NCBI GenBank assembly: GCA_022826505.1
Contig: JAJDUQ010000107.1
Span: forward strand, 1 to 53,138
Reading direction: 5' to 3'
Source: Gammaproteobacteria bacterium
Lineage (GTDB): Bacteria; Pseudomonadota; Gammaproteobacteria; HK1
Length of the DNA stretch: 53,138 bases
Of the stretch, positions 18,205 through 35,640 are shown piece after piece; positions within the stretch are counted from its first letter, which is position 1, and every line of letters begins with the position of its first letter. Both the position numbers and the translations under genes were made by a program. The notes under the pieces are model-generated. The model was not told the DNA's origin. It saw only the letters and a list, made by a program, of their open reading frames with translations, and made no database searches.

Positions 18205-18262
18205 GCACGGTCCCGTCCCGTTTTCCGGCGGCAAGGTGCGCCGGCGTGACGAGACCGGTGCG

Positions 18263-19030: not shown

Positions 19031-19044
19031 GCGCAACCGCGACC

Positions 19045-19917: not shown

Positions 19918-20069
19918 CGACCGGGGGCCCGCGGGCCGACATGCGGCGGCCCTCGGTTCCAATTCCGCGCACGGGCCACGGAGATACGATCCCTCACGGT
20001 TCGCGGCACGGCTCGTCGCGAGAGCGCTCGTTGGTCACCGCACGCCACGCATTTCCGGAGACTTCGTCC

Positions 20070-20786: not shown

Positions 20787-20798
20787 GTCCGCCGGCCG

Positions 20799-20818
20799 GC
20801 CCGCATTGCACGGCGGGC
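20799..20818 (+). terminator. GC hairpin just after the prepilin
   Basis: GCCCGC and GCGGGC form a 6-bp stem around an 8-base loop, 12 bases after the stop. No T-run follows, so at most it is a weak or Rho-assisted terminator, or an mRNA-stabilising hairpin. Confidence 0.25.
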
Positions 20819-21016
20819 GGCGCGGGCCGCCACGTCATCGGGCACGAATACTCGTGCGGGAAAGGGTGGACGACCGATGCGCGGCGGCCCAGGGATCGAG
20901 GGCAGGATGCTCTCGACTCCGGTGAGTGCTCGGGACCGTCAGCGAGAGATCCGACAAGTCGAGCGTGGACCCGGAAGGGGAGGAGCGGAGCGGTGCCGCC
21001 ACGGGCGGAAATGGCC

Positions 21017-21022
21017 TAGAAT
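21017..21022 (+). promoter_or_regulatory. Possible -10 element (TAGAAT)
   Basis: TAGAAT lies about 20 bases before the ATG of the small coiled-coil gene. No clear -35 is visible. The same ten-base string CTAGAATCGC appears at 36903-36912 ahead of the tRNA-Thr gene, which makes a -10 role a little more plausible. Confidence 0.25.
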
Positions 21023-21042
21023 CGCGACGAAGAGACAGCCCG

Positions 21043-21339
21043 ATGACCACCAGCACCTTCGATACGCTCGACGCGATGCGCCGACTCGGAAACGCAGGCA
21101 TGGAGAGGGCTCAGGCCGAAGCGACCGTGGAGACGATCCGCGATGCGCAGGCGGAGCTCGCGACCAAGGCCGATCTCGGCCTGTTGCGTTCCGAGCTGGC
21201 TGCAGTGGAGTCCAGGCTGCTTTCCGCTCTGGCCGAGCTGCGCGCGGACCTCTACCGGGCATTGTGGATTCAGGGCGCGGGGATCGTCGCCATCAACGCC
21301 GCGTTCATCGCAGTCGCAGCCGCTCTCGGACTCATCTGA
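21043..21339 (+). CDS. Small CCDC90/DUF1640-like coiled-coil membrane protein
   Basis: A 98-residue protein: FDTLDAMRRLGNAGMERAQA, then a long charged helix with ELATKADLGLLRSELAAVE, then one C-terminal membrane helix (GAGIVAINAAFIAVAAALGL). This is the layout of bacterial CCDC90/DUF1640 proteins, relatives of the mitochondrial MCUR1 family, which are tail-anchored coiled-coil trimers of unknown bacterial role. It sits between the candidate major pilin and the ABC ATPase. Whether it serves the pilus or the exporter is unknown. Confidence 0.75.
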   Translation: MTTSTFDTLDAMRRLGNAGMERAQAEATVETIRDAQAELATKADLGLLRSELAAVESRLLSALAELRADLYRALWIQGAGIVAINAAFIAVAAALGLI

Positions 21340-21395
21340 CCCGCCCGCCGCACGTGAGGTGCGCATCGCCCGAGCCGGTTCGCCCGGCGCCCCGC

Positions 21396-22106
21396 GTGAA
21401 CGCCATCGAGTTCTCCGCCGTGTCCAAACGGCTCGGATCCCGCGCCGTGCTGGCGGACCTCTCGCTGGTCGTGCACGCGGGCGAAATCTTCGGGCTCGTC
21501 GGGACCAATGGCGCGGGCAAGACCACCTGTATCAAGTGTCTTCTCGATCTCTGCCACCTCGACGCGGGTCGGATTCGCATCTTCGGCCGGCCTGCGGCGG
21601 CGCCGGAGTCGCGCCGCCCGCTCGCCTACCTGCCGGAACGTTTCGTGCCCCCTCGCCACCTCCTCGGGCGGGAGTTCCTGCGCTTCATGTCGAGGATGCA
21701 CCAGGTCGAGCCGCGGCCCGGCCGGGTGCGCGAAGTGCTCGCCGCCCTCGATCTCGCGCCGTCCGTTCTCGACGAACCGGTCCGAGAGTACTCGAAGGGC
21801 ATGGCGCAGAAGCTCGGCCTCTCGGCCTGCCTGCTTGCCGGCAAGCCCCTGCTCGTGCTCGACGAGCCGATGAGCGGCCTCGATCCGAAGGCCCGGGTGC
21901 TCGCGAGGCGCTACCTCCGGTGCTTGCGCGACGGTGGCGCGACAGTGTTCCTCAGCACCCACCTGCTCGCGGACGCGGGCGGCCTGTGCGACCGGATGGG
22001 CGTGCTCCACGACGGTGCGATGCGGTTCGTCGGCTCCCCGGCCGGCCTGCGCGAGCGCTTTCCCGCCGCCACGCTCGAGGAATCCTGGATCGCCTGCATC
22101 TCGTGA
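21396..22106 (+). CDS. ABC-2 type transporter ATP-binding protein
   Basis: A 236-residue cytoplasmic ATPase with all motifs: Walker A GTNGAGKTT (about 32-40), Q-loop region AYLPERF, signature YSKGMAQKLGL, Walker B LLVLDEPMSGLDP and switch STHLL. The LPE Q-loop and KGM signature are typical of exporters with ABC-2 permeases. Start is GTG at 21396 (frame VNAIEFSAVSKRLG). The permease at 18263 is the obvious partner. Substrate unknown; in this setting a pilus component, lipid or glycan is plausible. Confidence 0.88.
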   Translation: MNAIEFSAVSKRLGSRAVLADLSLVVHAGEIFGLVGTNGAGKTTCIKCLLDLCHLDAGRIRIFGRPAAAPESRRPLAYLPERFVPPRHLLGREFLRFMSRMHQVEPRPGRVREVLAALDLAPSVLDEPVREYSKGMAQKLGLSACLLAGKPLLVLDEPMSGLDPKARVLARRYLRCLRDGGATVFLSTHLLADAGGLCDRMGVLHDGAMRFVGSPAGLRERFPAATLEESWIACIS

Positions 22107-22373: not shown

Positions 22374-25028
22374 ATGGAACCCACCATCTTCAAGTTCGTG
22401 CTCAGGTACAGCCTGCGCGAGCAGGTTCTCCTGCTCGTGCTGACCATCGCCTCGTTTCCGTTCTTCTACCTCCTGCTCTACCTGCCGAAGGTCATCGTCA
22501 ACGAGGCGATCGACGCCGACGCGTCCGCGTTTCCGGTGGAGGTCGCCGGCGTCGAGCTCGGGCAGATCGAGTACCTGCTGGCGCTGTGCGGGATGTTCCT
22601 CGGGCTCGTCCTCGTCAACGGAGGCTTCAAGTACTTCCTGAACGTTTACCGCGGGGTGGTCGGCGAACGCATGCTCCGGCGCCTGCGATACGACCTCTTC
22701 GTGCGCATGCTGCGCTTTCCGCTTCCCCGGTTCCGCCGCACCTCGCAGGGCGAGCTGGTCGCCACCATCGTCGCCGAGACCGATCCGCTCGGCGGCTACA
22801 TCGGCGATTCCATCGCGCTGCCCGTGTTCCAGGGCGGCATGCTCATCACCCTGCTGATCTTCATGTTCATCGAGGACCCGATTCTCGGCCTCGCCGCCAT
22901 CGCGCTGTATCCGGTGCAGATGTGGCTCATTCCGAAGCTGCAGAAGAAGCTGAACGCCAGGAAGAAGGAGCGGATCCGGCTCGCCCGCGCTCTGTCCGAA
23001 CGGATCGGAGAGGTGGTGACCGGGATTCGCGAGATCCACACCCACGACACCTCGCGGCTCGAGCGTGCGGACTACACCGAGCGGGTCGGCGAGATCTACC
23101 GCGTCAGAGTGCTGATCTACCGCCTGAAGTTCTTCATCAAGTTCGCCAACAACTTCATCGCCCAGATCACGCCGTTCTTCTTCTACTCGATCGGCGGCTA
23201 CCTGGTCATCCAGGGCGACCTCACGTTCGGCTCGCTGGTGGCGGTCATCGCCGCCTACGAAAAGCTCGCCGATCCGTGGAAGGAGCTGCTCAACTTCTAT
23301 CAGGTCAAGGAGGACGCGAAGGGCAAGTACGAGCTGCTCCTCGAATCGTTCCAGGTATCGGGCATGCTCGACCAGGAGCAGCTCGACGCCGAGCCGGACA
23401 CGCGAGTCCCGCTCACCGGCGCCCTCGTCGCCACCAATCTCGATCTCAAGGAGGAGGACGAGAGCGAGACGACGTTCCCCGGCGGACTCTCGCTCAACGC
23501 CGAGCTGCCGGCGACGCTCGCGATCGTGGGGGGACCGGGCAGCGGCTGCGACCGCCTCGCCCACATCGTCGCCGGCCTCAAGCGCCCGAGCACGGGGACG
23601 CTGGTGGCCGGCACGACGGACCTGCTTGCCGCCCCCGAGGCGGTGACGGGGCGCCAGGTCGCCTACGTCGGACCCGAGACCAGCCTGTTCTCCGGCACCT
23701 TGCGGGACAACCTGCTCTACAGCCTCAAGCACCGCCCGACGAAGGACGCCGACTACGACGAGTCCGGTCGTGCGCGGTGGGACCGGCTCCGCACCGAATC
23801 CGGCCGGGCCGGAAACTCGGTCCTCGATATCCGGGCGAACTGGATCGACTACGCGGGCGCGGGAGTCGAGGACCTGGAGTCGATGAACGCGCGCGCCATC
23901 GAGGTGCTCTCGATCGTGGACATGGACGACGACATCTACCAGCTCGGGCTGCAGTCGGACATCGACCCGAGTGACGCACCGGAGCTCGCGAGCGGTGTCC
24001 TGGAGGCGCGCAAGATGCTCCGGATCCGGCTTGCGGACCTCAACGTCGCGCACCTCATCGACCCCTTCGACCGCGACGCCTACAACGTCAACATGACGGT
24101 GGCGGAGAACCTGCTCTTCGGCACCCCGAAGGATCGGACGTTCGACCCGGAAGACCTCGCCGGGAACGCCCATGTGCGCAAGGTCCTGGTCGACCTCGGA
24201 CTGATGGACGACTTCGTGGACATCGGACGTCAGGTCGCCGCGGTCATGGTCGACCTGTTCGCCGACGTCGCTCCCGGCAGCGAGCTGTTCGAGCAGTTCA
24301 GCTTCATCTCCGCCGAGGACCTGCCGGAATTCCGCAGCATGCTCGCACGCACCGAGTCCGACAGCGTGGGTGACCTCGGCGACGACGACCGGACGATGTT
24401 CCTGTCGCTCACGTTCAAGCTGGTGCCCGCGCGCCATCGACTCGGATTCATCGACGAGCCGATGCAGAGACGCGTGGTCCTGGCCCGGCGCCGGTTCTCC
24501 GAGGGGTTCGGAGCCGACGAGACAGCCATCGAATTCTTCGACGCCGAGCGCTACAACTCCTCGGTCTCGATCCTGGACAACATCCTGTTCGGGCGGCTTG
24601 CCTACGGACGCCAGCGCAGCGCCGCGCGCATCGGAGAGGTGATCGCGGAAGTGGTGGACACGCTCGGACTGCGCCGCCTCGTCATGGAGTGCGGACTCGA
24701 CTATTCCGTCGGGATCGCCGGCTCGCGGCTCACCGCGGTGCAGCGCCAGAAGCTCGCGATCGCCCGAGCGGTGCTGAAACGCCCGGACGTGCTCGTCATC
24801 GACCGCGCGACCGCGGCCCTCGACGCAGCATCGCAGACCCGAATACTTGATAACCTGTTGAAAGAGTTTGGATCTCGCGGCTTGATCTGGGTAGTCCACC
24901 GTGCCAGCCTTGCCGAGAATTTCGGCGAAATCATCGTGCTGGAGGGCGGCAAGGTGGTGGAACAGGGTACGTTCGCGAAATTGAATCGACCCGGTACCGT
25001 GTTTCACGAGATGGCGCTGGCCGGCTGA
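22374..25028 (+). CDS. ABC-exporter-like protein with degenerate, expanded nucleotide-binding domain
   Basis: 884 residues. Residues 1-330 form a type I exporter membrane domain with about six helices (for example LLLVLTIASFPFFYLLLYL and ITPFFFYSIGGYLVI). The NBD is abnormal. The Walker A site at 386-393 reads GGPGSGCD, with cysteine for lysine and aspartate for serine/threonine. The signature is LTAVQ (786-790) and Walker B is VLVIDRAT (806-813), with arginine for the catalytic glutamate. The switch histidine H842 remains. About 390 residues separate Walker A from the signature. The segment that follows the Q-loop in exporters appears three times: SGTLRDNLLYS (440), MTVAENLLFG (574) and VSILDNILFG (731). 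Classical ATP hydrolysis by one chain looks unlikely, so it may be a regulated or ATP-sensing transporter. The cyclic-nucleotide-binding gene follows closely. Confidence 0.8.
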   Translation: MEPTIFKFVLRYSLREQVLLLVLTIASFPFFYLLLYLPKVIVNEAIDADASAFPVEVAGVELGQIEYLLALCGMFLGLVLVNGGFKYFLNVYRGVVGERMLRRLRYDLFVRMLRFPLPRFRRTSQGELVATIVAETDPLGGYIGDSIALPVFQGGMLITLLIFMFIEDPILGLAAIALYPVQMWLIPKLQKKLNARKKERIRLARALSERIGEVVTGIREIHTHDTSRLERADYTERVGEIYRVRVLIYRLKFFIKFANNFIAQITPFFFYSIGGYLVIQGDLTFGSLVAVIAAYEKLADPWKELLNFYQVKEDAKGKYELLLESFQVSGMLDQEQLDAEPDTRVPLTGALVATNLDLKEEDESETTFPGGLSLNAELPATLAIVGGPGSGCDRLAHIVAGLKRPSTGTLVAGTTDLLAAPEAVTGRQVAYVGPETSLFSGTLRDNLLYSLKHRPTKDADYDESGRARWDRLRTESGRAGNSVLDIRANWIDYAGAGVEDLESMNARAIEVLSIVDMDDDIYQLGLQSDIDPSDAPELASGVLEARKMLRIRLADLNVAHLIDPFDRDAYNVNMTVAENLLFGTPKDRTFDPEDLAGNAHVRKVLVDLGLMDDFVDIGRQVAAVMVDLFADVAPGSELFEQFSFISAEDLPEFRSMLARTESDSVGDLGDDDRTMFLSLTFKLVPARHRLGFIDEPMQRRVVLARRRFSEGFGADETAIEFFDAERYNSSVSILDNILFGRLAYGRQRSAARIGEVIAEVVDTLGLRRLVMECGLDYSVGIAGSRLTAVQRQKLAIARAVLKRPDVLVIDRATAALDAASQTRILDNLLKEFGSRGLIWVVHRASLAENFGEIIVLEGGKVVEQGTFAKLNRPGTVFHEMALAG

Positions 25029-25117
25029 CGCGGTTCGGTACGGTCGCACGGCCTCGTTCGCCCATGCAATCATGGGCTCGGGGCAATGACACGACGGCAG
25101 AAGTTCGAAACTCTGGA

Positions 25118-25597
25118 ATGGCGATGGACCTCACGACCGAAGCCGAGATGCTTCGCAAGGTGCCGATGTTCGCGAAGCTGGAGCTCTCGAAGCTCAAGCT
25201 TCTCGCGTTCACGAGCGAGCTCTGCACCTATGACGACGGGGAGGTGCTGTTCGAGGCGGGCGACGCGCCCGACAGCGCCTACGTGATCATGAAGGGTGCG
25301 GTCGACATCCTTGCCGACACCGAGACGGGATCGGTGGTGGAGGTGGTGCTCGGCAGCAACGAGCTGTTCGGAGAGCTCGGCGTGCTGACCAGCTCGCCGC
25401 GCTCCGCGACGGTCCGAGCCCAGGACGGACTCGTCGCGCTGCGCATTTCCGACGAGATGTTTCTCAAGCTGCTGGCGGAGAATCCGGAGGTCGCGCTGGA
25501 CGTCATGCGCCAGTTGAGCGAGAAGCTCGTGCGATCGCACGAACAGTTCGTGGAGCTGCAGAAACGGTTGCAGCAGCTCGAGCAACCGCGGACCTGA
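25118..25597 (+). CDS. Stand-alone cyclic-nucleotide-binding domain protein
   Basis: A 159-residue cytoplasmic protein with one CNB (Crp-type) domain at about 10-120 and a C-terminal heptad helix at about 125-156. The phosphate-binding cassette is intact: FGELGVL (84-90, Glu86) and PRSATV (94-99, Arg95), the residues that hold ribose and phosphate of cAMP or cGMP. There is no DNA-binding HTH, so it is not a transcription factor of the CRP type; it more likely acts on a partner protein. It follows the degenerate ABC gene, and a nucleotide cyclase lies 1.1 kb away. ATG at 25124 is an alternative start. Confidence 0.85.
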   Translation: MAMDLTTEAEMLRKVPMFAKLELSKLKLLAFTSELCTYDDGEVLFEAGDAPDSAYVIMKGAVDILADTETGSVVEVVLGSNELFGELGVLTSSPRSATVRAQDGLVALRISDEMFLKLLAENPEVALDVMRQLSEKLVRSHEQFVELQKRLQQLEQPRT

Positions 25598-25636
25598 ATC
25601 GGGTGATGCGGCGGAACGGCCGCCCGGAGCCGAATC

Positions 25637-26266
25637 GTGCTGGACCGACAACGTTTCGAATCCCTCTGGACCCGCTGCATCGGCGACGGCGCCAGTGCGG
25701 TGTTCGACGAGCTCGACGGGATGTACCGCGAACCGCACCGCCGGTATCACGCCGCCCCGCACATCGAGCACTGCCTGCGCCAGTTCGATCTCGCCGCCGA
25801 TCGGATGGACGAGCCCGACGTGGTCGAGATGGCGTTGTGGTTCCACGATGCGATCTACGAAATTCCGGCGAAGGACAACGAATTGCGCAGCGCGGAGCTG
25901 TTCGCGGCACTCGCCGACGGGCGGGGCTCGAAGCGGTTCCGTACCAAGGTGCACGATCTCGTCATGGCGACGACCCACCTCGACCCGCCACCGCAAACCC
26001 TCGACGAATCGTTCATGGTGGACATCGATCTGTCGAGCTTCGGCCGGCCTTGGGAAGAGTTCCTCCTCGACAGCCGCGCGGTACGAGCGGAGCTTCCGCA
26101 CCTGTCGGATGCCGAGTTCCGTCCCCGGCAGAAGAAGTTCCTGGAATCGCTCGCGGCCCGGCCCCGTTTCTGCTTCACGGAGTTCTTCCGCGAACGGCAC
26201 GAGGATCGTGCCCGGAAGAACATGGAGCGGATGATTGCGATGCTGGAGTCGGAGGGCGGGCCGTAG
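25637..26266 (+). CDS. HD-superfamily metal-dependent hydrolase (COG4339-like)
   Basis: 209 residues, GTG start at 25637 with GGAG upstream. Metal ligands of an HD domain are visible: RRYHAAPHIEHCL (His38, His42), LWFHDAIYE (His70-Asp71) and VDIDLSSFG. HDLVMATTHLD holds further histidines. The RxYH, WFHD, DIDLS pattern is that of predicted HD phosphohydrolases of COG4339, whose substrates are unknown. Because it sits between a cyclic-nucleotide-binding gene and a cyclase, hydrolysis of a nucleotide or phosphoester is an attractive guess, but the sequence does not show a cyclic-nucleotide phosphodiesterase signature. Confidence 0.75.
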   Translation: MLDRQRFESLWTRCIGDGASAVFDELDGMYREPHRRYHAAPHIEHCLRQFDLAADRMDEPDVVEMALWFHDAIYEIPAKDNELRSAELFAALADGRGSKRFRTKVHDLVMATTHLDPPPQTLDESFMVDIDLSSFGRPWEEFLLDSRAVRAELPHLSDAEFRPRQKKFLESLAARPRFCFTEFFRERHEDRARKNMERMIAMLESEGGP

Positions 26267-26381
26267 CGCATCGCCCCGCCCGCACCCCGGTCCGGCCGCG
26301 CAGGGCGAAGGCGTTGCGCGACATTCGACCCGCGCAAGGGATTCCGGGCCGGCCACGTCGGCCTGCACGCTGCAATCCGGT

Positions 26382-27731
26382 CTACGCGCCTCGCGGTTCC
26401 TCCGGTGCGGGCGAGGGGTCGACGTCGATCCGGTAGATGGTCACCGGCCGGTTGCGTCCCCGCACCGTCACCGTCCCCAGTGTCTGGAATGCGAATCGAT
26501 CGGGACCGGCGAGCTCGCGGGTGCGTTCGGAGACGATGATCCGCGTTCCATGTTCCTTGTTGAGCGCCTCGAGCCGGGCCGCGAGGTTCACGTCGTCGCC
26601 ATGCACCGTGTAGCCCAGTCGATCCTGGGCGCCGACCAGTCCGCCGACCACCACTCCGGTATTGATTCCGACTCGCGAGGTGAGCCGTAGTCCGGCTCCG
26701 AAGGTGCGTGCACCGAGGATATGCTGGATCTCGATGGCGGCGCGCACCGCGCCCGCAGCGTGGTCGTCGAGCGCCCTGGGAAGATTGAAGGTCGCGAGGA
26801 TGGCGTCTCCCTGATACTGGTTGATGACGCCGCCGTGGCGAATGATGGGCTCGGTGACCGCCGCGAAGTACTCGTTCAGGGTGGAGATCAGCTCCACCGG
26901 CGTCATTCCCTCGCTCAGGGTCGTGAACCCCTGGAGGTCGTTGAAGAAGATCGTCGTCTCCCGCACCTCGCCCGCACCCGCTTCCACCCGCGTCTCCGAC
27001 GTCTTGACCTGCGCCGCCACCTCGCTCGGCACGAAGCGCGAGAGCTCGGCCGCGGCGGTGCTCTCCACCACCGAGCGAACGAGCAGATCGCGTGCCCGGG
27101 TGATCGCGATGGCAAGGATCCCGGTCACGATCAGCACCGAGATGACCTTGTCGAACTCCGCTCCGAGCAGGATGCTGTTCGAGGTCATGTACTCCACGTA
27201 GTCGCGCGTGATCATCGGGTCGTCGAACGACATGCGGGCGGCGTAAAGCACCATCAGCAGCCATCCCCCCGCCGCCACTGCGCCCGCGATCAGCACGTAG
27301 CGCGCCTCGAAGCGCAGTGCGCGCAACGCGATGAAGATGAAGACGTAGAGCAGGGTGGGGACCTTGAGATAGAACGACGCGGGCTGACCGTACTTCACGT
27401 GGATGCTCCAGATCAGGGCGAGCAGCAGGAGCATGTCGACGACCACGGAGACGTAGAGCAGCCAGTCCGGCAATGCGCGCCGGTGGGCGAGGACGACGCG
27501 CGCCAGGGTGAAGAGCAGATACGCGCCGAGCACCCAGGGTTCCGGCGCGAACACCGGGTCCGCGGTGTAGGGCTTGGGGGAAAGCGCGTAGAGGATCGAG
27601 AACGTGACCACGATCGAGAGCTGGATCCATCCGACCGCAATCTCGCTCGATTCCTGCTGTTTGCGAATCGCCTCCCGCACGCGTCCCGGCAGGTGCGGGG
27701 TCTCTCCGATCGTCGGCAATCGCAGGCGCAT
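26382..27731 (-). CDS. Membrane class III nucleotide cyclase
   Basis: A 449-residue enzyme making a cyclic nucleotide from NTP. Six membrane helices occupy about 32-210, followed by a short linker and a class III catalytic domain at about 255-435. Metal-binding aspartates are D265 (FFNDLQGFT) and D309 (YQGDAIL); transition-state residues are N382 and R386 (DDVNLAARLE). The base-selecting lysine of adenylate cyclases (as in NKYIGD) is glutamine here (NQYQGD, Q305), so adenine specificity is not assured. The start is taken at ATG 27731; the frame is open upstream, but the extra part is not cyclase-like. It is convergent to the HD gene and divergent from the glycosyltransferases, which suggests a shared control region at 27732-28077. 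Confidence 0.88.
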   Translation of the reverse strand: MRLRLPTIGETPHLPGRVREAIRKQQESSEIAVGWIQLSIVVTFSILYALSPKPYTADPVFAPEPWVLGAYLLFTLARVVLAHRRALPDWLLYVSVVVDMLLLLALIWSIHVKYGQPASFYLKVPTLLYVFIFIALRALRFEARYVLIAGAVAAGGWLLMVLYAARMSFDDPMITRDYVEYMTSNSILLGAEFDKVISVLIVTGILAIAITRARDLLVRSVVESTAAAELSRFVPSEVAAQVKTSETRVEAGAGEVRETTIFFNDLQGFTTLSEGMTPVELISTLNEYFAAVTEPIIRHGGVINQYQGDAILATFNLPRALDDHAAGAVRAAIEIQHILGARTFGAGLRLTSRVGINTGVVVGGLVGAQDRLGYTVHGDDVNLAARLEALNKEHGTRIIVSERTRELAGPDRFAFQTLGTVTVRGRNRPVTIYRIDVDPSPAPEEPRGA

Positions 27732-28077
27732 GCTCGATCCCGGGTCTCGTCGTGTCTCGGTGGCGACGGACGCTTCCGGTGGCGACGGAGTGAAGCGAGC
27801 GTCCGTGAAGCATGACTCCGTGACGTTCTGTCGTCTCCACCGCGTTGACACGCGCGAAAAGCCTATCCTACCGGGTGTCGATCCGGCCACTCGTGATCGC
27901 CTCGGCGTCGCCGCGGAACGTTCGATCGATTTGGCCGTCTCGACAATCGAAGCGATCCTCACCACAGGACGAGGCACGGATGCTCGCACCACCGCGGAGG
28001 GACCTCCCGATTGCGGGTTCGTCCAGGTTTCGGCTAGGCTCGCGCGCGATGCGGAACCGAGCGGGGCAGGTGTAATC
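27732..28077. promoter_or_regulatory. Divergent control region between cyclase and glycosyltransferase genes
   Basis: 346 bases without a gene I can support. On the plus strand an exact TTGACA sits at 27845-27850, but the best following -10 matches (TATCCT 13 bases on, TACCGG 19 bases on) are poorly spaced. The frame of the downstream gene stays open through the region, but the residues encoded there are not family-like. Confidence 0.3.
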
Positions 28078-29304
28078 GTGTCACCGAGATATGCCCGAGT
28101 GCTGGTCTACAGCCACGACTCCTTCGGGCTCGGACACCTGCGCCGGTGCCGGACCATCGCCCATGCGCTCGTGGCACGCCGCAAGGCGCTGTCCGTGCTC
28201 ATCCTGTCGGGCTCGCCGATCATCGGCAGCTTCGATTTCCGCACCCGTGTCGACTTCGTTCGGGTTCCCGGCGTCATCAAGCTGCGCAACGGCGAATACT
28301 CGTCACTCAGCCTGCACATGGACATCGGGGAGGTGCTGCGGATGCGCGCCTCCATCATCCGACACACCGCCGAGGTGTTCGCGCCGGACATCTTCATCGT
28401 CGACAAGGAACCCCTCGGCCTGCGCGGAGAGATCCTGGGCACTCTGGAAGCGCTCAAGGCCCGCGGTTCCCGCCTCGTACTGGGCCTGCGCGACGTGATG
28501 GACGATCCGGCGCTGCTCGCGGAGGAATGGGAACGCAAGAACGCCATGTCGGCGCTCGAAACGCTGTACGACGACATTCTCGTCTATGGCCTCCCGCAGA
28601 TGTGCGAACCGCTGGCGGGTCTCGGGCTCTCGACCGCGATGCGGCGGAAGATGACCTATACCGGCTATCTCGAAAGCGCGCCGTCCGACGACGCGCCCCG
28701 GATCCCCGCCGCAACCGTCCTGCCGGAGCCGTTCATCCTCGTGACCCCCGGTGGAGGAGGGGACGGCGAAGACCTTATCGACTGGGTCATCGGCGCCTAC
28801 GAGTCCGATCCGGGGCTGCCCCATCCCGCCCTGATCGTCTTCGGACCCTTCATGCGTCCCCGGCGGCGGGAGCAGTTCCGCATGCGGATTGCGAGGCTCG
28901 ATCGAGTCGAGGCGATCACCTTCGATGCGCGGTTCGAAAATCTCATGGCCCGCGCCGCCGGCGTCGTCGCGATGGGGGGGTACAACACCTTCTGCGAAAT
29001 CCTCACCTTCGACAAACCGGCCGTTATCGTCCCGAGACGCCTCCCGCGCCTGGAACAGACCATCCGGGCGTCACGCGCCGAGCAGCTCGGGCTGGTCCGG
29101 ATGCTGAGCGACGAGCACGGCCGCGGCCGGCGCGCCATGGCGGCGGCACTGCGCGGAATCGTCTCCCAGCCACGCCCGTCCGACGTCGTGGTGCCCGGCC
29201 TTCTCGAAGGTCTCGACAACATTCATCGCCTCGTGGAGCGCTGGCTCGACCCACGCGGCGAGCGTCCCGGCGCGGCGCGCGCCGCCGGCGGCGCCACGCG
29301 CTGA
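28078..29304 (+). CDS. GT28/MurG-like glycosyltransferase
   Basis: A 408-residue GT-B fold enzyme. The N-terminal domain starts VLVYSHDSFGLGHLRRC, the glycine-rich loop typical of MurG-like enzymes. The C-terminal domain has FILVTPGGGGDGEDL and GVVAMGGYNTFCEIL, the nucleotide-sugar site, followed by KPAVIVPR. GTG at 28078 is chosen as start with GCAGG upstream. It is a paralogue of the gene at 32948 (shared GLGH/GIGH, YTGY and GYNT motifs). Acceptor and donor are unknown. It opens a run of four glycosyltransferases. Confidence 0.75.
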   Translation: MSPRYARVLVYSHDSFGLGHLRRCRTIAHALVARRKALSVLILSGSPIIGSFDFRTRVDFVRVPGVIKLRNGEYSSLSLHMDIGEVLRMRASIIRHTAEVFAPDIFIVDKEPLGLRGEILGTLEALKARGSRLVLGLRDVMDDPALLAEEWERKNAMSALETLYDDILVYGLPQMCEPLAGLGLSTAMRRKMTYTGYLESAPSDDAPRIPAATVLPEPFILVTPGGGGDGEDLIDWVIGAYESDPGLPHPALIVFGPFMRPRRREQFRMRIARLDRVEAITFDARFENLMARAAGVVAMGGYNTFCEILTFDKPAVIVPRRLPRLEQTIRASRAEQLGLVRMLSDEHGRGRRAMAAALRGIVSQPRPSDVVVPGLLEGLDNIHRLVERWLDPRGERPGAARAAGGATR

Positions 29305-29313
29305 ATCTCCTCC

Positions 29314-30591
29314 ATGCGCCGCCCTGTCGCGGTCGTGGTGAAGGGCTGGCCGCGCCTGTCGGAGACCTTCATCGCGCAGGAGATCCTGGCCCTGGAACGC
29401 CGAGGGGTCGACATCCTGATCGTGTCGTTGCGTCGCCCGACGGATCGGTTCACCCATCCGATCCATGCGGAAATACGTTCTCCGGTGCACTATCTGCCCG
29501 AGTATCTGCACGACGCTCCGGGCCGCGTGCTGCGAGCCTGGATGGAGGCGCGGCGGCTTCCCGGATACTCCCGAGCCCGCCGGATGTGGTTGGCCGATCT
29601 GGCCCGTGACCGCACCCGGAATCGGGTGCGCCGTTTCGGCCAGGCGCTGGTGCTTGCGGCGGAGCTCGGCCGGGTCGGTTCGATTCACGCCCACTTTCTG
29701 CACACGCCGGCGTCTGTCGCCCGCTACGCGAGCGCGATGCTGGGCATCGGATGGAGCTTCTCCGCCCACGCCAAGGACGTGTGGACGACACCGGACTGGG
29801 AGAAGCGCGAGAAGCTCGCCGATGCCCGCTTCGGCGTCACCTGCACGCAGGCCAACCTCGAACACCTCGCGGCGCTCGCGCCGTCACCCGATGTCGTCGC
29901 GCTCGTGTACCACGGCCTGGACCGGGGACGATTTCCGCAACGGGGGATGGAGCGGACTCCACGCGACGGCTCGGACCCGGCGGATCCGGTTCGGATCCTG
30001 TCGGTGGGGCGCCTGGTGGAGAAGAAGGGATTCGACGATCTGCTCGCGGCGCTCGCGTCGGTTTCTCCGTCGCTTGCATGGACGCTGGACGTGGTGGGCG
30101 GCGGTGCGCTCGACGCGCGACTGCGGCGGCAGGCGGCGGCGCTCGGCATCGGCGACCGGGTGCGCTGGCACGGGAGCCTGCCGCATGACCGGGTGGTCGA
30201 GCGCTTCGCCGCCGCGGATCTCTTCGCGCTGGCCTCCAGGGTTTGCGCCGACGGCGATCGCGACGGACTGCCGAACGTACTGATGGAAGCACAGCTTCTC
30301 GGTGCTGCATGCGTCGCGACCCGGATGTCGGGGACCCCGGAGCTGATCGAACATGAGAGCAACGGACTGCTCGTGCCGCCGCGCGACATCGCCGCCCTTG
30401 CCGCGGCCCTCGAACGCGCGATCGTCGACCCGGGGCTGCGCTCGCGCCTGGCCGACGCGGGCAGGCGGGTCGTCACGACGAGGTTTTCGTTCGAGGACGG
30501 CGTAGCCAGGATTGCGGCGAGATTGACGGATTCATCCAACCCGGTCGCGAATCCGGGTCCTGTCCGCGGAATCTGCGAACCGGCATCCTGA
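29314..30591 (+). CDS. GT4-family glycosyltransferase
   Basis: 425 residues, starting 9 bases after the previous gene. N-terminal motif VVVKGWPRLSETFIAQEI and SIHAHFLHTPASVARY are seen in GT4 enzymes for exopolysaccharide or colanic-acid-like glycans. The C-terminal donor site has ILSVGRLVEKKGFDDLL and the E-x7-E element in PNVLMEAQLLGAACVATRM. RVCADGDRDGLPN matches the loop before it. The last 35 residues are disordered. Predicted cytosolic or membrane-associated retaining transferase. Confidence 0.85.
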   Translation: MRRPVAVVVKGWPRLSETFIAQEILALERRGVDILIVSLRRPTDRFTHPIHAEIRSPVHYLPEYLHDAPGRVLRAWMEARRLPGYSRARRMWLADLARDRTRNRVRRFGQALVLAAELGRVGSIHAHFLHTPASVARYASAMLGIGWSFSAHAKDVWTTPDWEKREKLADARFGVTCTQANLEHLAALAPSPDVVALVYHGLDRGRFPQRGMERTPRDGSDPADPVRILSVGRLVEKKGFDDLLAALASVSPSLAWTLDVVGGGALDARLRRQAAALGIGDRVRWHGSLPHDRVVERFAAADLFALASRVCADGDRDGLPNVLMEAQLLGAACVATRMSGTPELIEHESNGLLVPPRDIAALAAALERAIVDPGLRSRLADAGRRVVTTRFSFEDGVARIAARLTDSSNPVANPGPVRGICEPAS

Positions 30592-30662
30592 AATCCAGGT
30601 TCTCCCGGCGGTGCGGTGCCGAATCGACCGCTGTGGATGACCCAGACCTGGAGGAGACGATC

Positions 30663-30797
30663 GTGACGAAGTATCAAAGGGCACTGCAGATCTGGACGTT
30701 GCTTGCATGTGCGGCAAGAGAACGAAAGACGTATACATGCGGAGATGTGGCAAGAATGCTTGGATGGAAGGGCGCGGGAGTGAAGGCGGTGCCGTGA
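30663..30797 (+). pseudogene. Truncated 44-codon gene with strong ribosome site
   Basis: GGAGGAG at 30650-30656, then 6 bases, then GTG. The product starts MTKYQRALQIWTLLACAARE, continues RKTYTCGDVARMLGWKGAG and stops. This looks like the N-terminal quarter of a family of about 120-140-residue small proteins that I recall beginning in the same way; the rest is gone. The DNA is visibly richer in A+T than its neighbours, suggesting foreign origin. The stop overlaps the GTG of the next glycosyltransferase (GTGA), so it may now serve as a translated leader for that gene. I cannot name the family. Confidence 0.55.
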
Positions 30798-31942
30798 GGA
30801 TTGCGTTCTACGCGCCGCTCAAGACGCCGGACCACCCTGTCGCGTCCGGAGACCGTCTCATCGCCGGGTTGCTCGTGCGTGCGCTCGAACAGGCGGGCCA
30901 CGACGTGGTGACCGCGTCGCGACTGAGGTCGTTCGACGGCGCGGGCGATCGCCGCCGCCAGCTCCGGCTCGCGCGGGCCGCGAGGGCGGAAGCGCTGCGG
31001 CTGCGCGAACGGTGGCACGGCTCGTCGCGGGCCCCGCGGTGCTGGTTCACCTACCACCTCTATCACAAGGCGCCCGACTGGATTGGTCCCCGCGTAAGCG
31101 CCGGGCTGGGAATCCCCTACGTCGTCGCGGAGGCGTCGCATGCGTCGAAGCAGGCGCACGGCGCATGGCGGCACGGCCATCGCGCGGTGGCGGTCGCACT
31201 CTCGCGTGCGGCTCGACTGATAGCACTCAACCCGGACGATGTGCCGGGGCTCCAACCGCGTCTCGGCACGCGTGCGCCGATTGTCCGGCTGACTCCCTTC
31301 CTGGACACTCACGCCTTCGCGCCGCCCGGTCGACGTTCGCGCCGCCGTGCCCGCCTGGCGCGCCTGCTGCGCATGAGTCCCTCGGTTCCGCTCCTCGCCT
31401 GCGTGGCGATGATGCGTCCCGGGCGCAAGGCGGCGTCCTTCAGGCTCCTGGCCGGTGCGCTCGAACGCGTGACGCACGTGCCGTGGCACCTGCTGGTGGT
31501 GGGCGGTGGTGTCGCCCGCGACGAGGTGGAAGCCGCATTCGCGAAGCTCCGGGCGGCCGGCCGGGTCACCTTCGTCGGTCCGCGGTTTCCCCCGGCCCTG
31601 CACGGCATAGTCGGGGCCTGCGACCTCTTCGTGTGGCCGGCGCTCGGAGAGCCGCTCGGCATGGCGATGCTCGAAGCCCAGGCGTTGGGCGTCCCGGTGA
31701 TTGCAGGCAAGACGCGCGGTGTGGGTTCCATGGTCGTGCACGGCACCGGGGGGTGGCTCGTGCCCGAGGGCGACGCCACGGCATTTGCCGACGCGGTGGT
31801 GCGGGCACTGGCCGATCGGGATGCCCTGGCCGCGGCGGGAACGGCGGGCCGGGCGCGCGTGCGGGCCGAACACGGTCTTGCGGCGGCCGCGCGCAATCTC
31901 GACCGGTTGCTCGGTGAGGTAGTGGCAGAGTGCGGGCGGTGA
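30794..31942 (+). CDS. GT4-like glycosyltransferase
   Basis: A 382-residue GT-B enzyme. It begins IAFYAPLKTPDHPVASGDRL, then has a basic N-terminal half with FTYHLYHKAPDWIG. The C-terminal half has ACVAMMRPGRKAASF, LLVVGGGVARDEV, FVGPRFP and the donor E-x7-E element in EPLGMAMLEAQALGVPVIAG. The GTG at 30794 has GAAGG upstream and overlaps the truncated gene's stop. The C-terminal tail EHGLAAAARNLDR recurs, mutated, just downstream. Confidence 0.8.
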   Translation: MRIAFYAPLKTPDHPVASGDRLIAGLLVRALEQAGHDVVTASRLRSFDGAGDRRRQLRLARAARAEALRLRERWHGSSRAPRCWFTYHLYHKAPDWIGPRVSAGLGIPYVVAEASHASKQAHGAWRHGHRAVAVALSRAARLIALNPDDVPGLQPRLGTRAPIVRLTPFLDTHAFAPPGRRSRRRARLARLLRMSPSVPLLACVAMMRPGRKAASFRLLAGALERVTHVPWHLLVVGGGVARDEVEAAFAKLRAAGRVTFVGPRFPPALHGIVGACDLFVWPALGEPLGMAMLEAQALGVPVIAGKTRGVGSMVVHGTGGWLVPEGDATAFADAVVRALADRDALAAAGTAGRARVRAEHGLAAAARNLDRLLGEVVAECGR

Positions 31943-31956
31943 AGGGCATGGCGATC

Positions 31957-32036
31957 AAGTCGAGCACGGTCTTGCGACGGCGGCGCGCAATCTCGACCAA
32001 TGAATCGACGATGCGTTGGCGGAGGGTGGGCGATGA
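31957..32036 (+). pseudogene. Copied glycosyltransferase tail with in-frame stop
   Basis: Bases 31962-31998 match 31868-31904 at 34 of 37 positions (offset 94). Read in the matching frame this gives VEHGLATAARNLDQ, a TGA, then IDDALAEGGR and a second TGA. The intact tail reads AEHGLAAAARNLDR...VVAECGR. So this is the end of a second, related glycosyltransferase gene whose body was deleted, or a partial tandem duplication that has decayed. Confidence 0.8.
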
Positions 32037-32156
32037 GCATCACGACGGGGAACCCGCGGCGGCGATTTTGCTGGTGGAGGTGCTCGTCGGTCTGCAATTC
32101 CCGTCCGGGGCTGCGCCGAGCGAATTCGACGCCGGAGGCGGTCGTCAGGCGTCGGG

Positions 32157-32762
32157 GTGCAGGCCGTGATTGAAGTGGCGATGGTCCGTCACGGCGTGAC
32201 CGCGTGGAACGAGGCGGGGCGCATCCAGGGCCGGACCGACGTTGCGCTCAGCGAGCGGGGACGCCGGGCATTGACCGGTCGGAGGCTTCCCGCGCGGTTC
32301 GCGACGTATCGCGTGTATTCGAGCCCGCTGGTTCGGGCGGTCGAGACCGCGGCCCTCCTGGGACTCGCAACGCCGGTGCTCGACCGGCGCCTGATGGAGA
32401 TGAACTGGGGCGAGTGGGAAGGACAGACGCGGGCCTCGGTCGCGGCAGCCGATGCGAGCGGGGTTGCCCACAACGAGGCGAGGGGGCCGGACTTCCGTCC
32501 ACCAGGCGGAGAGAGTCCGCGCGAGCTGCAGGCGCGGATCGTCGATTGGGCGCGGAGCGTCGCCGGCCGGCGCGTGAACGTGGTCGCGATCACCCACAAG
32601 GGAGCCATCAAGGCGACACTCGGTCTCGCCTGCGGCTGGAATCTCACCGGCAAGTCCCCGGTGCGTCTCGACTGGTCGTGCGTGCAGCACTTTCGCTTCG
32701 ATCCGCAGTCCGACGAATTCGCGCTCGTCGAGGCGAATATCCGGCTGGAGCGCGGAGAATAG
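32157..32762 (+). CDS. Histidine phosphatase (phosphoglycerate-mutase-like)
   Basis: About 201 residues. The catalytic motif VRHGVTAWNEAGRIQG carries the phosphate-accepting histidine. SSPLVRAVETA, MNWGEWEG and AITHKG supply the second arginine, the acid glutamate and the second histidine. The family dephosphorylates sugar phosphates, mutase intermediates or alpha-ribazole phosphate; nothing here resembles a cobalamin setting. Set among glycosyltransferases, a sugar-phosphate substrate is likely (inference). GTG at 32157 or GTG at 32166 may start it. Confidence 0.8.
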   Translation: MQAVIEVAMVRHGVTAWNEAGRIQGRTDVALSERGRRALTGRRLPARFATYRVYSSPLVRAVETAALLGLATPVLDRRLMEMNWGEWEGQTRASVAAADASGVAHNEARGPDFRPPGGESPRELQARIVDWARSVAGRRVNVVAITHKGAIKATLGLACGWNLTGKSPVRLDWSCVQHFRFDPQSDEFALVEANIRLERGE

Positions 32763-32947
32763 TCTCCCGTGGTCGCTACCGGCCCGCGCGGCACGCGAAC
32801 TCGACTCTCGGCCATATCGAGTGCGACGCACAGCCGCCGACGGGTGCGGCGGCTCCTGTCCGTCACGTGATGATGCCGGTCGGGAATCTGCCGAGGCGCA
32901 GCCATCGACGTCGCACAGCAGACTTCAGTCATGCCGGATAGCTGCCG

Positions 32948-34117
32948 ATGACCGCTATCGGGACTTCGCCGCGGGTCATGGTCTGGGTCCAGCACCTGTT
33001 GGGGATCGGCCATCGGCGCCGCGCCGCCGCCATCGCGCGTGCCCTCGCCGAGCGCGGAGCGGACGTCGCCTTCGTGACCGGTGGCGTGGGGGCGCCTGAG
33101 GTCGATCCCCATCGCGTGCGCGTCGTCGCACTCCCCGCCGCCCGCGCGCAGGACGCGAGCTTCCGGGTACTCGTGGACGGAGACGGTCGCAGGGTCGGAG
33201 ATTCCTGGCGCGCCGCCCGGCGGGACATGCTGCTCTCGGCGTTCGAGGAGCATGCACCGCACGTCCTCGTCACCGAGTCGTATCCGTTCGGCCGGCGGAT
33301 GATGCGGTTCGAGCTCGAACCGCTCGTCGAGCGGGCCCGCGCCGCGGGATGCCGGCTCGTGAGCTCGATTCGCGATGTGCTTCAGCCGCCGTCGAAGCCG
33401 TCGCGCGCGCAGGCTGCCGCCGATCGCGTGCGGGCGTGCTACGACGCGGTGCTGGTGCATGGCGATCCCGCATTCGTGCGGCTCGAAGCGAGCTTTCCGG
33501 AGACGGAACGAATTCGCGAGCGCATCCGCTACACCGGATACGTCGCGGCAGGGCAGGGACCGGCTGCGCCCCCCGGGGTGGGCGAGGGAGAAGTCGTGGT
33601 CTCCGCCGGCGGCGGCGTGGTGGCCCATCGACTCGTGGACACGGCGTTGGCTAGCTCACGACTCGATGAGACCCTGCGATGGCGAATCCTCGTAGGACCG
33701 AATGCCGGCGCCGACTTTCTGGACGGCTGGCGCCGCGCAGCGCCCGGGAATGCGGTCGTGGAGCCGAACCGCGCCGATTTCCGATCGATCCTCTCGCGGG
33801 CACGGGTTTCGGTCTCCCAGGCGGGCTACAACACCGTCACCGATCTTCTGGCCACCGGAGTGCCCGCGGTGCTCGTTCCGTTCGCCGCCCAGGGCGAGCG
33901 CGAGCAGTCGATCCGGGCACACGTTCTCGCCGAGGCCGGGGCGGCACGGGTGGTGGACGAGGACCGGCTGAGTCCCGAGACCCTGCTGGATTCGGTTCGA
34001 CGATCGGCCGCAACGGCCGATTCGCCCCGTCGCACGGTACGGCTCGACGGTGCGAGGGAAAGCGCCGAGGGGTTGCTCGAAATCGCCCGTGGCGTCATCG
34101 ACTCGTCCGGGCGGTGA
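32948..34117 (+). CDS. GT28/MurG-like glycosyltransferase
   Basis: 389 residues, ATG at 32948, 185 bases after the phosphatase. N-terminal VMVWVQHLLGIGHRRR and C-terminal VSVSQAGYNTVTDLL, PAVLVPFA and EREQSIRA define a GT-B enzyme of the MurG/GT28 type. It is clearly related to the protein at 28078 but shorter and with a different middle. Soluble or peripheral; donor unknown. Confidence 0.75.
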   Translation: MTAIGTSPRVMVWVQHLLGIGHRRRAAAIARALAERGADVAFVTGGVGAPEVDPHRVRVVALPAARAQDASFRVLVDGDGRRVGDSWRAARRDMLLSAFEEHAPHVLVTESYPFGRRMMRFELEPLVERARAAGCRLVSSIRDVLQPPSKPSRAQAAADRVRACYDAVLVHGDPAFVRLEASFPETERIRERIRYTGYVAAGQGPAAPPGVGEGEVVVSAGGGVVAHRLVDTALASSRLDETLRWRILVGPNAGADFLDGWRRAAPGNAVVEPNRADFRSILSRARVSVSQAGYNTVTDLLATGVPAVLVPFAAQGEREQSIRAHVLAEAGAARVVDEDRLSPETLLDSVRRSAATADSPRRTVRLDGARESAEGLLEIARGVIDSSGR

Positions 34118-34492
34118 ATGCGCCGAGACGAGTGATTTCTGTTCGTCGTGTTCCTGTTTCGGCCTTGGTGGCGGTGGAGTAATACCGACTTGGCCGTGCG
34201 GCGTCCAGAAACCCCTGCCACACTTCATTCCGTGTTTGATCGCTGACACTCATGGAGTGGGTTCCTGCGTCATGAGCCATCCGATATCACGCGCATCTGT
34301 ATGGGGCTGGGCGATTGTACTGGACGCGAATTCGATCGGATCCGGCATGATGACTTCGAAGCATCTGCCTCGGATTCGGCTCCATGTTGAACGCGTCTAA
34401 AGGTGCCACCCGACTGTCGGCATTTACTCACAATCTTGACCCATTACCGTCATGATCGGCGAATTCGCCGAGCCGCCGGAAAGAACCGACGA
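34118..34492. other. A+T-richer gap of 375 bases
   Basis: Base composition drops visibly against the flanking genes. I see no recognisable gene, tRNA or insertion sequence. A 42-codon frame from ATG 34272 has no ribosome site or known relative. It may be decayed foreign DNA, and it probably also holds the promoter of the deacetylase gene. Confidence 0.45.
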
Positions 34493-35248
34493 ATGAACTG
34501 GTCCCATCTCGACAACGAGCTCGACGCGTGGCACGCCGAAGGTCGGCGCGCCTCGCTGTGGTGGCGGGACGACGACGCCACGGCACCGTCGCCGGCCCTC
34601 GACCGCCTCGCGGCCCTGGCCCACGCGCACGACGTCACGGTTGGGCTCGCGGTCATTCCCGCCCTCGTACAGCCCGGTTTCGCCACGTGGCTCGCGTCCG
34701 TGCCGGTCGAGGTGCTGCAACATGGATGGGCCCACCGCAGCCACGCCGGCGCCGGCGAGAAGAAGACGGAATTCGGGAACGAGCGGGATGCGGAGGCAGT
34801 GACGCGCGAATTGGGACAGGGATTCGGCACGCTCGGGAAGCTCGTCGGACACCGCTTCCAGCCGGTGCTGGTCCCGCCGTGGAATCGGCTGGATCCGGGC
34901 CTGATCCCGGAGCTTGCGCACGCGGGCTACCGCGGCCTCTCGATGTACGGTCCTCGTTCGTCGGGGGAGCCGGCGCCGGGACTCAAGCAGACGAACTGCC
35001 ACGTGGACGTCGTGGACTGGCGGGGCGGGCGGGGATTCGTGGGGCACGATCGGGCAATCGCGGCGGTGGTCGCACATCTTGCGGCTCGCCGGGTGCAGTT
35101 GGTGGACCCGGTCGAGCCGACCGGAATACTCACTCATCATGCCGTGCACGAGGAGGCGACCTGGACGTTCATCGCCCGGTTCCTGGAACGGACGCGACAT
35201 CATCGGGCGATACGATGGCTTGCGCCGGGCGAGGCGATACTCGCATGA
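34493..35248 (+). CDS. Polysaccharide-deacetylase-like protein
   Basis: 251 residues, ATG at 34493 with GGAAAG upstream. The NodB-type fold is suggested by LWWRDDDATAPSPALDRL (metal aspartates after the first strand), LQHGWAHRSHAG (metal histidines) and VLVPPWNRLDPGLIPEL. These elements follow the order of NodB/CE4 domains. It probably removes acetyl groups from a glycan, although no signal peptide is seen, which suggests cytoplasmic action on a glycolipid or precursor. Stop overlaps the next start by four bases (ATGA). Confidence 0.72.
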   Translation: MNWSHLDNELDAWHAEGRRASLWWRDDDATAPSPALDRLAALAHAHDVTVGLAVIPALVQPGFATWLASVPVEVLQHGWAHRSHAGAGEKKTEFGNERDAEAVTRELGQGFGTLGKLVGHRFQPVLVPPWNRLDPGLIPELAHAGYRGLSMYGPRSSGEPAPGLKQTNCHVDVVDWRGGRGFVGHDRAIAAVVAHLAARRVQLVDPVEPTGILTHHAVHEEATWTFIARFLERTRHHRAIRWLAPGEAILA

Positions 35249-35640
35249 CCGGAATTCGCTCGGGTCCGTCGGTGACGACTGGGACAGCCGACGAACGTCG
35301 TGCCCCATCCCTCCACCCGCTCCCCGGTGGCGGCCACGTCGCCTACCGCTTCGGGCCGGGGCACGCTCCGACCGTGGTGTTCCTGTGCGGCTACGCATCG
35401 GAGATGACAGGGACCAAGGCGCGGTTCCTGCACCGCGTGTGCGCCGAGGCCGGGCACGCCTGTCTGCGATTCGACTATCGCGGGCGCGGTGCGTCGTCCG
35501 GGCGCTTCGAGGACGGCACCATCGGTTCCTGGACGGACGATGCGTGCGCGGTGATCGAGGCGGCCACCCGAGGCCCGCTGGTCCTCGTGGGATCGAGCAT
35601 GGGTGGGTGGATCATGCTGCATGGCGTCCTCGGTGGGTGA
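35245..35640 (+). pseudogene. Alpha/beta hydrolase cut off after the nucleophile elbow
   Basis: 131 codons. The fold begins normally: VVFLCGYASEMTGTKARFL (oxyanion region), LRFDYRGRGASSG and the nucleophile elbow LVGSSMGGWIMLH. It then reads GVLGG and stops. A full enzyme is around 250-280 residues and needs an Asp and a His from the missing half. Only 99 bases separate it from birA, so the second half is deleted rather than shifted. It overlaps the deacetylase gene by four bases. Product almost certainly inactive. Confidence 0.75.

Follow-up and report, generated by a model that had tools for sequence, protein, structure and literature searches.

Introduction

CFTR is a membrane protein of ABC descent that is controlled by cAMP and in which one ATPase site has degenerated; it has kept one working ATPase site, and its control runs via a kinase. 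Cyclic-nucleotide-binding (CNB) proteins of the bacteriocin-type transport-associated family TIGR03896 are tied to an ABC exporter in a peptide system, for which we know of no glycan operon. The MsbA2 operon of Sinorhizobium meliloti is described as comprising the glycosyltransferases SMb21189 and SMb21190 and the exporter SMb21191, for an unknown polysaccharide (PMC3687685, PMC12239276). SMb20813 is named as the S. meliloti msbA homolog (PMC10945364), and smb20804 and smb20805 are linked to the capsule (PMC5539429). Here we describe a gene cluster that joins an ABC-exporter-like protein to a CNB protein and a set of glycan genes. No description of this module was found in a search of openly licensed papers, which included passages of PMC3687685, PMC12239276, PMC5539429, PMC5596199, PMC10659215, PMC10945364 and PMC3688454.

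Results

The window, a stretch of 53,138 nucleotides of gammaproteobacterial DNA, carries the following genes:

22374..25028, plus strand: ABC-exporter-like protein, 884 residues, with a conserved transmembrane domain (TMD) and a degenerate, split nucleotide-binding domain (NBD)
25064..25597, plus strand: CNB protein, 177 residues, PF00027, helix-turn-helix not found
25637..26266, plus strand: HD-motif protein, possible hydrolase, H...HD...D pattern, no profile match
26382..27992, minus strand: membrane class III nucleotide cyclase, PF00211, true start probably near 27731
28069..29304, plus strand: GTa, glycosyltransferase with a GT28-type C-terminal domain, start inferred from orthologs
29314..30591, plus strand: GTb, GT4 glycosyltransferase
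30707..31942, plus strand: GTc, GT4 glycosyltransferase
32157..32762, plus strand: histidine phosphatase, PF00300, E 2.4e-40
32948..34117, plus strand: GTd, glycosyltransferase with a GT28-type C-terminal domain
34403..35248, plus strand: deacetylase-like protein, sub-threshold DUF2334 match, E 0.027

The GTa reading frame is open from 27604 to 29304, and the cyclase gene is convergent with the ABC-CNB-HD genes and divergent from the glycosyltransferase genes. Profile matches confirmed the cyclase, the CNB protein, the exporter-like protein, the four glycosyltransferases and the histidine phosphatase named in the initial annotation. Two of its labels are weak: the HD protein is recognised by its motif pattern and the deacetylase-like protein by its sub-threshold match, and orthologs of the latter gene on plasmid records are annotated as polysaccharide deacetylase. 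A Pfam profile search found no second export protein inside the cluster. The assertion that the exporter-like protein is the only membrane transporter stands for 22374-35640; just upstream, an ABC-2-type permease and an ATPase occupy 18236-22106. A short alpha/beta-hydrolase ORF, which ends at 35640, was left out of the gene set.

In a Pfam search the ABC protein matched ABC_membrane (PF00664, E 1e-24) and, partially, ABC_tran (E 4.7e-11), and its best NCBIfam match was TIGR02203, at 199 bits against a cut-off of 602. It is like the MsbA/ABCB-type half exporters (TIGR02203; PF00664 and PF00005) in TMD fold family and TMD-NBD order, but unlike them in its lost motifs, split and enlarged NBD, CNB partner and inverted conservation. 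The cluster shares with the MsbA2 operon an exporter-like protein neighbouring glycosyltransferases, whereas the available parts of the MsbA2 papers mention no cyclic-nucleotide partner (PMC3687685, PMC12239276). Identity of the ABC gene with msbA2 was rejected by locus, 841.7-844.4 kb versus ~938 kb for the first gene of the MsbA2 operon on pSymB of S. meliloti 1021; SMb20813 may be the S. meliloti member of the present ABC family. The combination of a CNB protein with an ABC exporter recalls TIGR03896, but the CNB protein scores far below that family's cut-off (33.1 versus 161.05 bits). Compared with CFTR, motif loss extends here across the whole chain, and the predicted nucleotide receptor is the partner itself.

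We then compared the locus with its relatives. A scan of genome contigs with the window's ABC protein as sole query gave four loci. The ABC family set comprised 47 loci, and 21 of the genomes that carry them also supplied 40 control regions. A CNB gene was part of the cluster in 47/47 ABC loci and in 0/40 control regions (locus counts and controls are compared by statistics without kinship correction). It lay directly downstream of the ABC gene in 36 loci and ~9-10 kb away in two; in eight the two were fused into a single polypeptide, and one locus held a split ABC-CNB fusion. The pairing of these genes, which the initial annotation had singled out for a neighbourhood check, was thus borne out. 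Each of the six glycan-operon families was also found in 0/40 control regions. Because of these counts the grouping is not due to chance, and chance proximity was rejected.

The ATPase of the ABC family was assessed in 48 proteins by the Walker A Lys, the signature GGQ, the Walker B Asp, the catalytic Glu and the H-loop His. The full set was kept in 0/48; GGQ was present in one protein and the H-loop His in 13. Walker A Lys and catalytic Glu were kept together in ten, so some members may still hydrolyse ATP. The window protein retains only the Walker B Asp and the H-loop His and lacks both the Walker A Lys and the catalytic Glu. Judged by these motifs, the ATPase is degenerate across the whole family, and the "broken NBD" first noticed in the window protein was an understatement. 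Across 30 genomes, conservation in the ABC family was 0.54 for the TMD and 0.35 for the NBD, an inversion of the pattern in ordinary exporters from the same genomes (TMD 0.30, NBD 0.58). This comparison led us to reject an alignment artefact as the source of the ATPase loss. It replaced an earlier motif control on four exporters of the window's own genome, in which all three patterns were seen in L002 and L003 only (frame read). Furthermore, the NBD contains three copies of its Q-loop/helical subdomain and is interrupted by ~310 residues that house the extra copies. A structure predicted from five sequences reached a mean pLDDT of only 42.5 and is given no weight here.

The CNB protein matched PF00027 (E 3.7e-19), and its phosphate-binding cassette, FGELGVLTSSPRSATV, appears intact, as initially noted. 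No further Pfam family was found in its 177 residues at E 0.001, hence no C-terminal helix-turn-helix was found, and a CRP/FNR-type transcription factor was rejected on this ground. Several CNB domains of fused ABC-CNB members have altered cassettes. The cyclase (PF00211, E 1.3e-25; five hydrophobic segments) has in its catalytic domain what we take to be the two metal-binding Asp of class III adenylate cyclases, and the position presumably held by the purine-recognising Lys is Gln in the window and in seven close orthologs. Cyclases lay near 23/47 ABC loci versus 5/40 control regions, with none nearby in 24/47; ABC, CNB and cyclase genes were consecutive in L096, L097 and L100, and the input domains of the cyclases varied between loci.

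The H...HD...D pattern of the HD protein is conserved. The protein had no Pfam, NCBIfam or PDB-sequence match, and a fold search with a poor query model (pLDDT 51), likewise given no weight here, gave no match at E 0.001. Its family occurs in 9/47 ABC loci, all gammaproteobacterial. Outside Gammaproteobacteria, an unrelated MBL-fold protein adjoins the CNB gene, and this hydrolase-like gene was present in 12/47 ABC loci versus 0/40 control regions. The "complete second-messenger circuit" of the initial annotation has partial support: a nearby cyclase and a hydrolase-like gene beside CNB fit it. In such a circuit the CNB protein would bind a cyclic nucleotide, the cyclase, in spite of its Gln, would make it, and the HD protein may be a phosphodiesterase.

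Of the six glycan families, three or more lay near the ABC core in 29/47 loci, and fewer than three in 18/47. The genomes with GTa were the genomes with a full-length ABC protein, 26/26 in the phylum sample and 5/5 in the class sample, a phyletic match that spans 13 families besides the window's own. Conservation of the glycosyltransferases without the ABC protein, which had been proposed as a sign of chance proximity, was not seen: neither of these two even samples contained a strong GTa ortholog in a genome lacking the ABC protein. GTa and ABC were co-present even far apart on one contig (G373 and G452); G378 had the ABC protein and no GTa. The window's six-gene order was retained in 7/14 separately fetched glycosyltransferase loci. 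The gene set is common to distantly related bacteria. Upstream in S. meliloti there are Wzx-like and OPX genes, which may give the glycan a different way out of the cell in that species.

Discussion

We infer that the locus encodes a gate or scaffold in the membrane that serves the glycan of the six-gene operon and is controlled by cyclic nucleotide. Our preferred reading, held with moderate confidence, is a conserved functional module in which a membrane gate or flippase for this glycan is under cyclic-nucleotide control. Its core would be the ABC-exporter-derived membrane protein with the CNB subunit seated on it; its second half, the operon of GTa, GTb, GTc, histidine phosphatase, GTd and deacetylase-like protein, would carry out the cytoplasmic synthesis of a glycan or glycolipid. 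The TMD dimer would most likely serve as conduit or flippase for the product or a precursor, and the ATPase domains, with hydrolysis largely lost, may be retained for docking and regulation. The complex would be switched when CNB binds cyclic nucleotide, the messenger being made by a cyclase with varying inputs and possibly removed by the HD or MBL-fold hydrolase. A bolder and more tentative proposal is that the protein represents a membrane gate of a new class. In this view an ABC exporter without an ATP motor is switched directly by a CNB receptor docked on or fused to its decayed, triplicated ATPase domain, and so controls whether a dedicated glycan is flipped or released.

The module reading is supported by the invariable CNB partner and the eight fusions, the co-presence of GTa and ABC including the unlinked cases, the retained six-gene order, the cyclase and MBL counts with the three consecutive loci, the differing input domains, the family-wide motif loss with inverted conservation, and a cluster with no other export protein. 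It is weakened by the 18 loci poor in glycan families, the 24 without a nearby cyclase, the ten proteins keeping Lys and Glu, G378, the cyclase Gln, the altered cassettes in several fused members, and the S. meliloti Wzx-like and OPX genes.

A less likely alternative is that ABC-CNB moves nothing and acts much as a co-polymerase does, as a cyclic-nucleotide-responsive scaffold by which the glycosyltransferases are recruited or switched. The linkage and co-occurrence data fit it too, as does ATPase decay, and TMD relatives without any NBD were found on roseobacter plasmids. However, TMD conservation above that of ordinary exporters hints that the TMD forms a specific path or pocket and is more than an anchor, and the product of four cytosolic-type glycosyltransferases needs an exit route. 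Still less probable is a glycan exporter of the ordinary ATP-driven kind whose motifs are unusual and which CNB tunes; in it, hydrolysis persists or is supplied by a partner NBD. The ten proteins with Lys and Glu and the overall MsbA-type half-exporter architecture favour this, but the rarity of GGQ and His, the lack of any complete motif set, the loss of Lys and Glu in the window protein and an NBD less conserved than the TMD argue against it. That core and operon are two independent systems merely occurring in the same lineages is very improbable. In its favour, several genomes carry the two at a distance from each other, and none of the 14 separately fetched glycosyltransferase loci matched the CNB or cyclase profiles; against it, the phyletic match is exact in both samples, and three or more of the six glycan families lie near the core in 29 loci while each is absent from the controls.

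The association of a cyclic-nucleotide sensor and sugar enzymes with an exporter whose ATP motor has decayed suggests an unrecognised control of the bacterial surface. If the gate reading is true, cyclic nucleotides would act on surface glycans directly at the membrane, beyond gene expression, and an ABC exporter would have been converted into a signal-gated device. Rhizobial cyclases are large in number, and some of them might find in the gene set an effector that is bound to the membrane. In Rhizobium and Sinorhizobium the set is carried on plasmids and chromids, and usable genetics there make gene removal and tests with purified proteins feasible.

Gene content of the window cluster

The window is one entire contig (C130) of MAG G000, and the uncultured Gammaproteobacteria that are its closest named relatives share 85-87% identity in the ABC-exporter-like protein (the ABC protein). 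The genes listed in the initial annotation proved to be real. Two of its labels are weak: the HD-motif protein gave no profile match, and the match of the deacetylase-like protein was sub-threshold. The cluster and its flanks comprise:

18236-22106, ABC-2-type permease and ATPase, immediately upstream of the cluster
22374-25028 (+), ABC protein, 884 residues, with a transmembrane domain (TMD) and an ATPase domain (NBD)
25064-25597 (+), cyclic-nucleotide-binding (CNB) protein
25637-26266 (+), HD-motif protein
26382-27992 (-), cyclase
28069-35248 (+), six-gene glycan operon in the order glycosyltransferases GTa, GTb and GTc, histidine phosphatase, glycosyltransferase GTd, deacetylase-like protein
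35260-35640, alpha/beta-hydrolase ORF

The ABC, CNB and HD-motif genes all lie on the plus strand with intergenic gaps of 35 and 39 bases, and the cyclase gene points toward them and away from the six-gene run. The ABC protein had been described as the only membrane transporter; this holds within the cluster, where it is the sole transporter-like protein, but not within the window, because of the ABC-2-type permease and ATPase. The alpha/beta-hydrolase ORF is seemingly truncated (~126 domain residues, then a stop) and lies directly upstream of a BirA-like gene at 35740.

The ABC and CNB genes form a core pair

Counting the window's own genome each time, relatives of the ABC protein (the ABC family) occurred in 6/369 genomes of the class (E 1e-80), 12/143 relatives and 28/398 genomes of the phylum (E 1e-60); one of these 28, G489, contributed a 3.2 kb contig on which just residues 13-317 were matched. 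Matches were also present in 267 of 72,556 plasmid records, chiefly from Rhizobium and Sinorhizobium. We analysed 50 ABC neighbourhoods, or 47 loci after removal of the duplicates L063, L064 and L065; G489 and G415, whose contig was too short, were not among them.

The proposed tie between the ABC and CNB proteins was borne out across the 47 loci. At 36, the ABC match was followed by a co-oriented CNB gene no more than 290 bases away, and at eight (L089, L091-L095, L098, L099) the CNB domain formed the C-terminus of the ABC polypeptide; a Pfam scan of the fused protein of L095 detected all three domains. The ABC frame of L062 is broken, and the ORF with the second ABC half carries the CNB domain. 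L059 and L060, from two genomes of one genus, have the CNB gene elsewhere in the cluster, at a distance of 9-10 kb and next to the HD and cyclase genes. Fused proteins fell into two separate groups in a quick tree, whose strong branches do not force two origins of the fusion. Many members keep the CNB cassette, and it is altered in several fused members.

The glycan operon co-occurs with the ABC protein

Conservation of the glycosyltransferases independently of the ABC protein would have pointed to chance proximity, and GTa was examined in this respect. Orthologs scoring at least 397 bits were found in 26 phylum-sample genomes besides the window's own, and these were identical to the 26 with a full-length ABC protein, in samples of nearly equal size (398 genomes for ABC, 396 for GTa). 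Weaker matches (177-233 bits) in four genomes lacking the ABC protein (G323, G609, G384, G695) were taken for probable paralogs. Agreement was 5/5 among the 369 class genomes, at a GTa cut-off (1e-70) that would conceal such weaker matches. The 31 genomes with both genes represent 13 families in addition to that of the window. P values from Fisher's test, uncorrected for kinship, were 3e-41 (phylum) and 2e-11 (class). Ten of 14 further genomes (13 of the window's family and G295) were GTa-positive; G378 had the ABC protein and lacked GTa, and G369, G375 and G376 had neither. G373 and G452 carry the two genes far apart on one contig, and some other genomes have them on separate contigs.

Among 14 separately fetched glycosyltransferase loci, seven kept the full window order, three kept it without GTd, and four kept it partially, some of them truncated where the contig stops; none of the 14 was matched by the CNB or cyclase profile. 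Each of the six glycan families was found in 14 to 29 of the 47 ABC loci and, with score thresholds unchanged, in 0/40 control regions (20 kb stretches taken from 21 of the genomes at coordinates fixed beforehand), where the best weak scores were 39-55 bits.

The ATPase has decayed and the order of constraint is inverted

ATPase motifs were aligned in 48 proteins (the 47 loci and the window), with L062 represented by its first ORF only and its C-terminal motifs scored as absent. The Walker A Lys was present in 11/48, the signature GGQ in 1/48, the Walker B Asp in 18/48, and the catalytic Glu and H-loop His in 13/48 each. Ten proteins had both the Walker A Lys and the catalytic Glu, and none of the 48 kept every tested feature. 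These losses indicate that the ATPase of the family has decayed. The best ordinary MsbA-like exporter of each of 30 genomes carrying the family had an intact signature and Walker B-Glu in 30/30 cases; Walker A served to select these ORFs and hence was no test there.

With one protein per genome from the same 30 genomes, mean pairwise column identity in ordinary exporters was 0.30 for the TMD and 0.58 for the NBD, whereas in the ABC family it was 0.54 for the TMD and 0.35 for each NBD half. The order of constraint is thus inverted. Leaving out L062, residues 1-335 hold 52 of the 69 positions with at least 95% conservation. A stretch of ~310 residues lies between the two NBD halves and includes the usual helical subdomain. 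Profile-profile comparison, again without L062, matched the middle and C-terminal helical parts with a probability of 98%, the first and C-terminal parts with 92.5%, and the first and middle parts with 90%; the family therefore has three copies of the Q-loop/helical subdomain.

Relatives of the TMD without an NBD occur on roseobacter plasmids amid copper-handling genes. Those of Phaeobacter inhibens pP92_a (L134:11773-13077, 434 residues) and Tritonibacter mobilis (L135:11218-13026, 602 residues) gave no NBD match and neighbour copper oxidase, copper-binding and cytochrome genes; each is, judging from its sequence, an ABC exporter TMD employed without an ATPase.

These data establish a functional link of a dedicated glycan operon to an ABC pseudo-ATPase and a receptor of the cyclic-nucleotide type (novelty was assessed against openly licensed papers only). 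The main rival to the export role first proposed is that the ABC and CNB proteins act as a scaffold. We favour the ABC protein as a putative gated conduit or flippase, because its TMD is far more constrained than that of ordinary exporters and because the window's cluster has no other export protein.

Cyclases and hydrolases accompany the pair

Cyclase profiles matched at 23/47 ABC loci and 5/40 controls (p 4e-4), a count tilted somewhat toward the ABC loci by a profile built from cluster cyclases; plain tblastn gave 18/47 and 3/40. In L096, L097 and L100, the ABC, CNB and cyclase genes follow in succession on one strand. The input parts of the cyclases vary: that of the window has hydrophobic segments, those of L096 and L097 have 2Fe-2S domains, and that of L009 has DUF427. 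In the window class III cyclase and seven close orthologs (L006, L008, L057, L066-L069), Gln replaces the purine-recognising Lys, which more distant neighbour cyclases (e.g. L077, L087) retain. The Gln-type enzymes may have an unusual product specificity.

The HD gene, found at 9/47 loci, adjoins the CNB gene in Gammaproteobacteria. A gene for an MBL-fold hydrolase adjoins the CNB gene at nine loci and lies just upstream of the ABC gene at three more (12/47 in total, against 0/40 controls). Having two unrelated putative metal hydrolases next to one receptor matches the expectation for an enzyme that removes the messenger.

Rhizobial versions include an importer

R. beringeri and R. etli CFN 42 p42e share the order cyclase, four-gene Opp-type importer, GTa, GTb, GTd, ABC, CNB. 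In S. meliloti R14 the ~22 kb cluster on pSymB has the order GTc, deacetylase, MBL, DUF3095, nucleotide-sugar dehydrogenase, cyclase, importer, GTa, GTb, GTd, methyltransferase, ABC, CNB, and CNB carries a Crp/Fnr regulator annotation there; genes of Wzx-like, OPX and sugar-transferase type lie farther upstream. The importer binding protein was found at 11/47 ABC loci, 0/40 controls and 8/14 of the separate glycosyltransferase loci, and the importer may serve in reuptake of the glycan or a fragment of it. Opp-type importers with a large binding protein were seen in L055, L056, L059, L060, L080, L082, L085, L086, L096, L097 and L100.

Identity of the S. meliloti ABC gene with msbA2 was rejected, as the msbA2 operon of strain 1021 starts ~94 kb from it on pSymB. 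In that strain the ABC gene is recorded as two overlapping ORFs (L137:14962-17713, ~841.7-844.4 kb of pSymB) and exceeds its strain 2011 counterpart by one base, reflecting either a genuine break or an error in sequencing. DUF3095 proteins occur in rhizobial cluster versions (L192:13727-14929, L078:3832-5094), and in S. meliloti their gene adjoins that of the MBL hydrolase.
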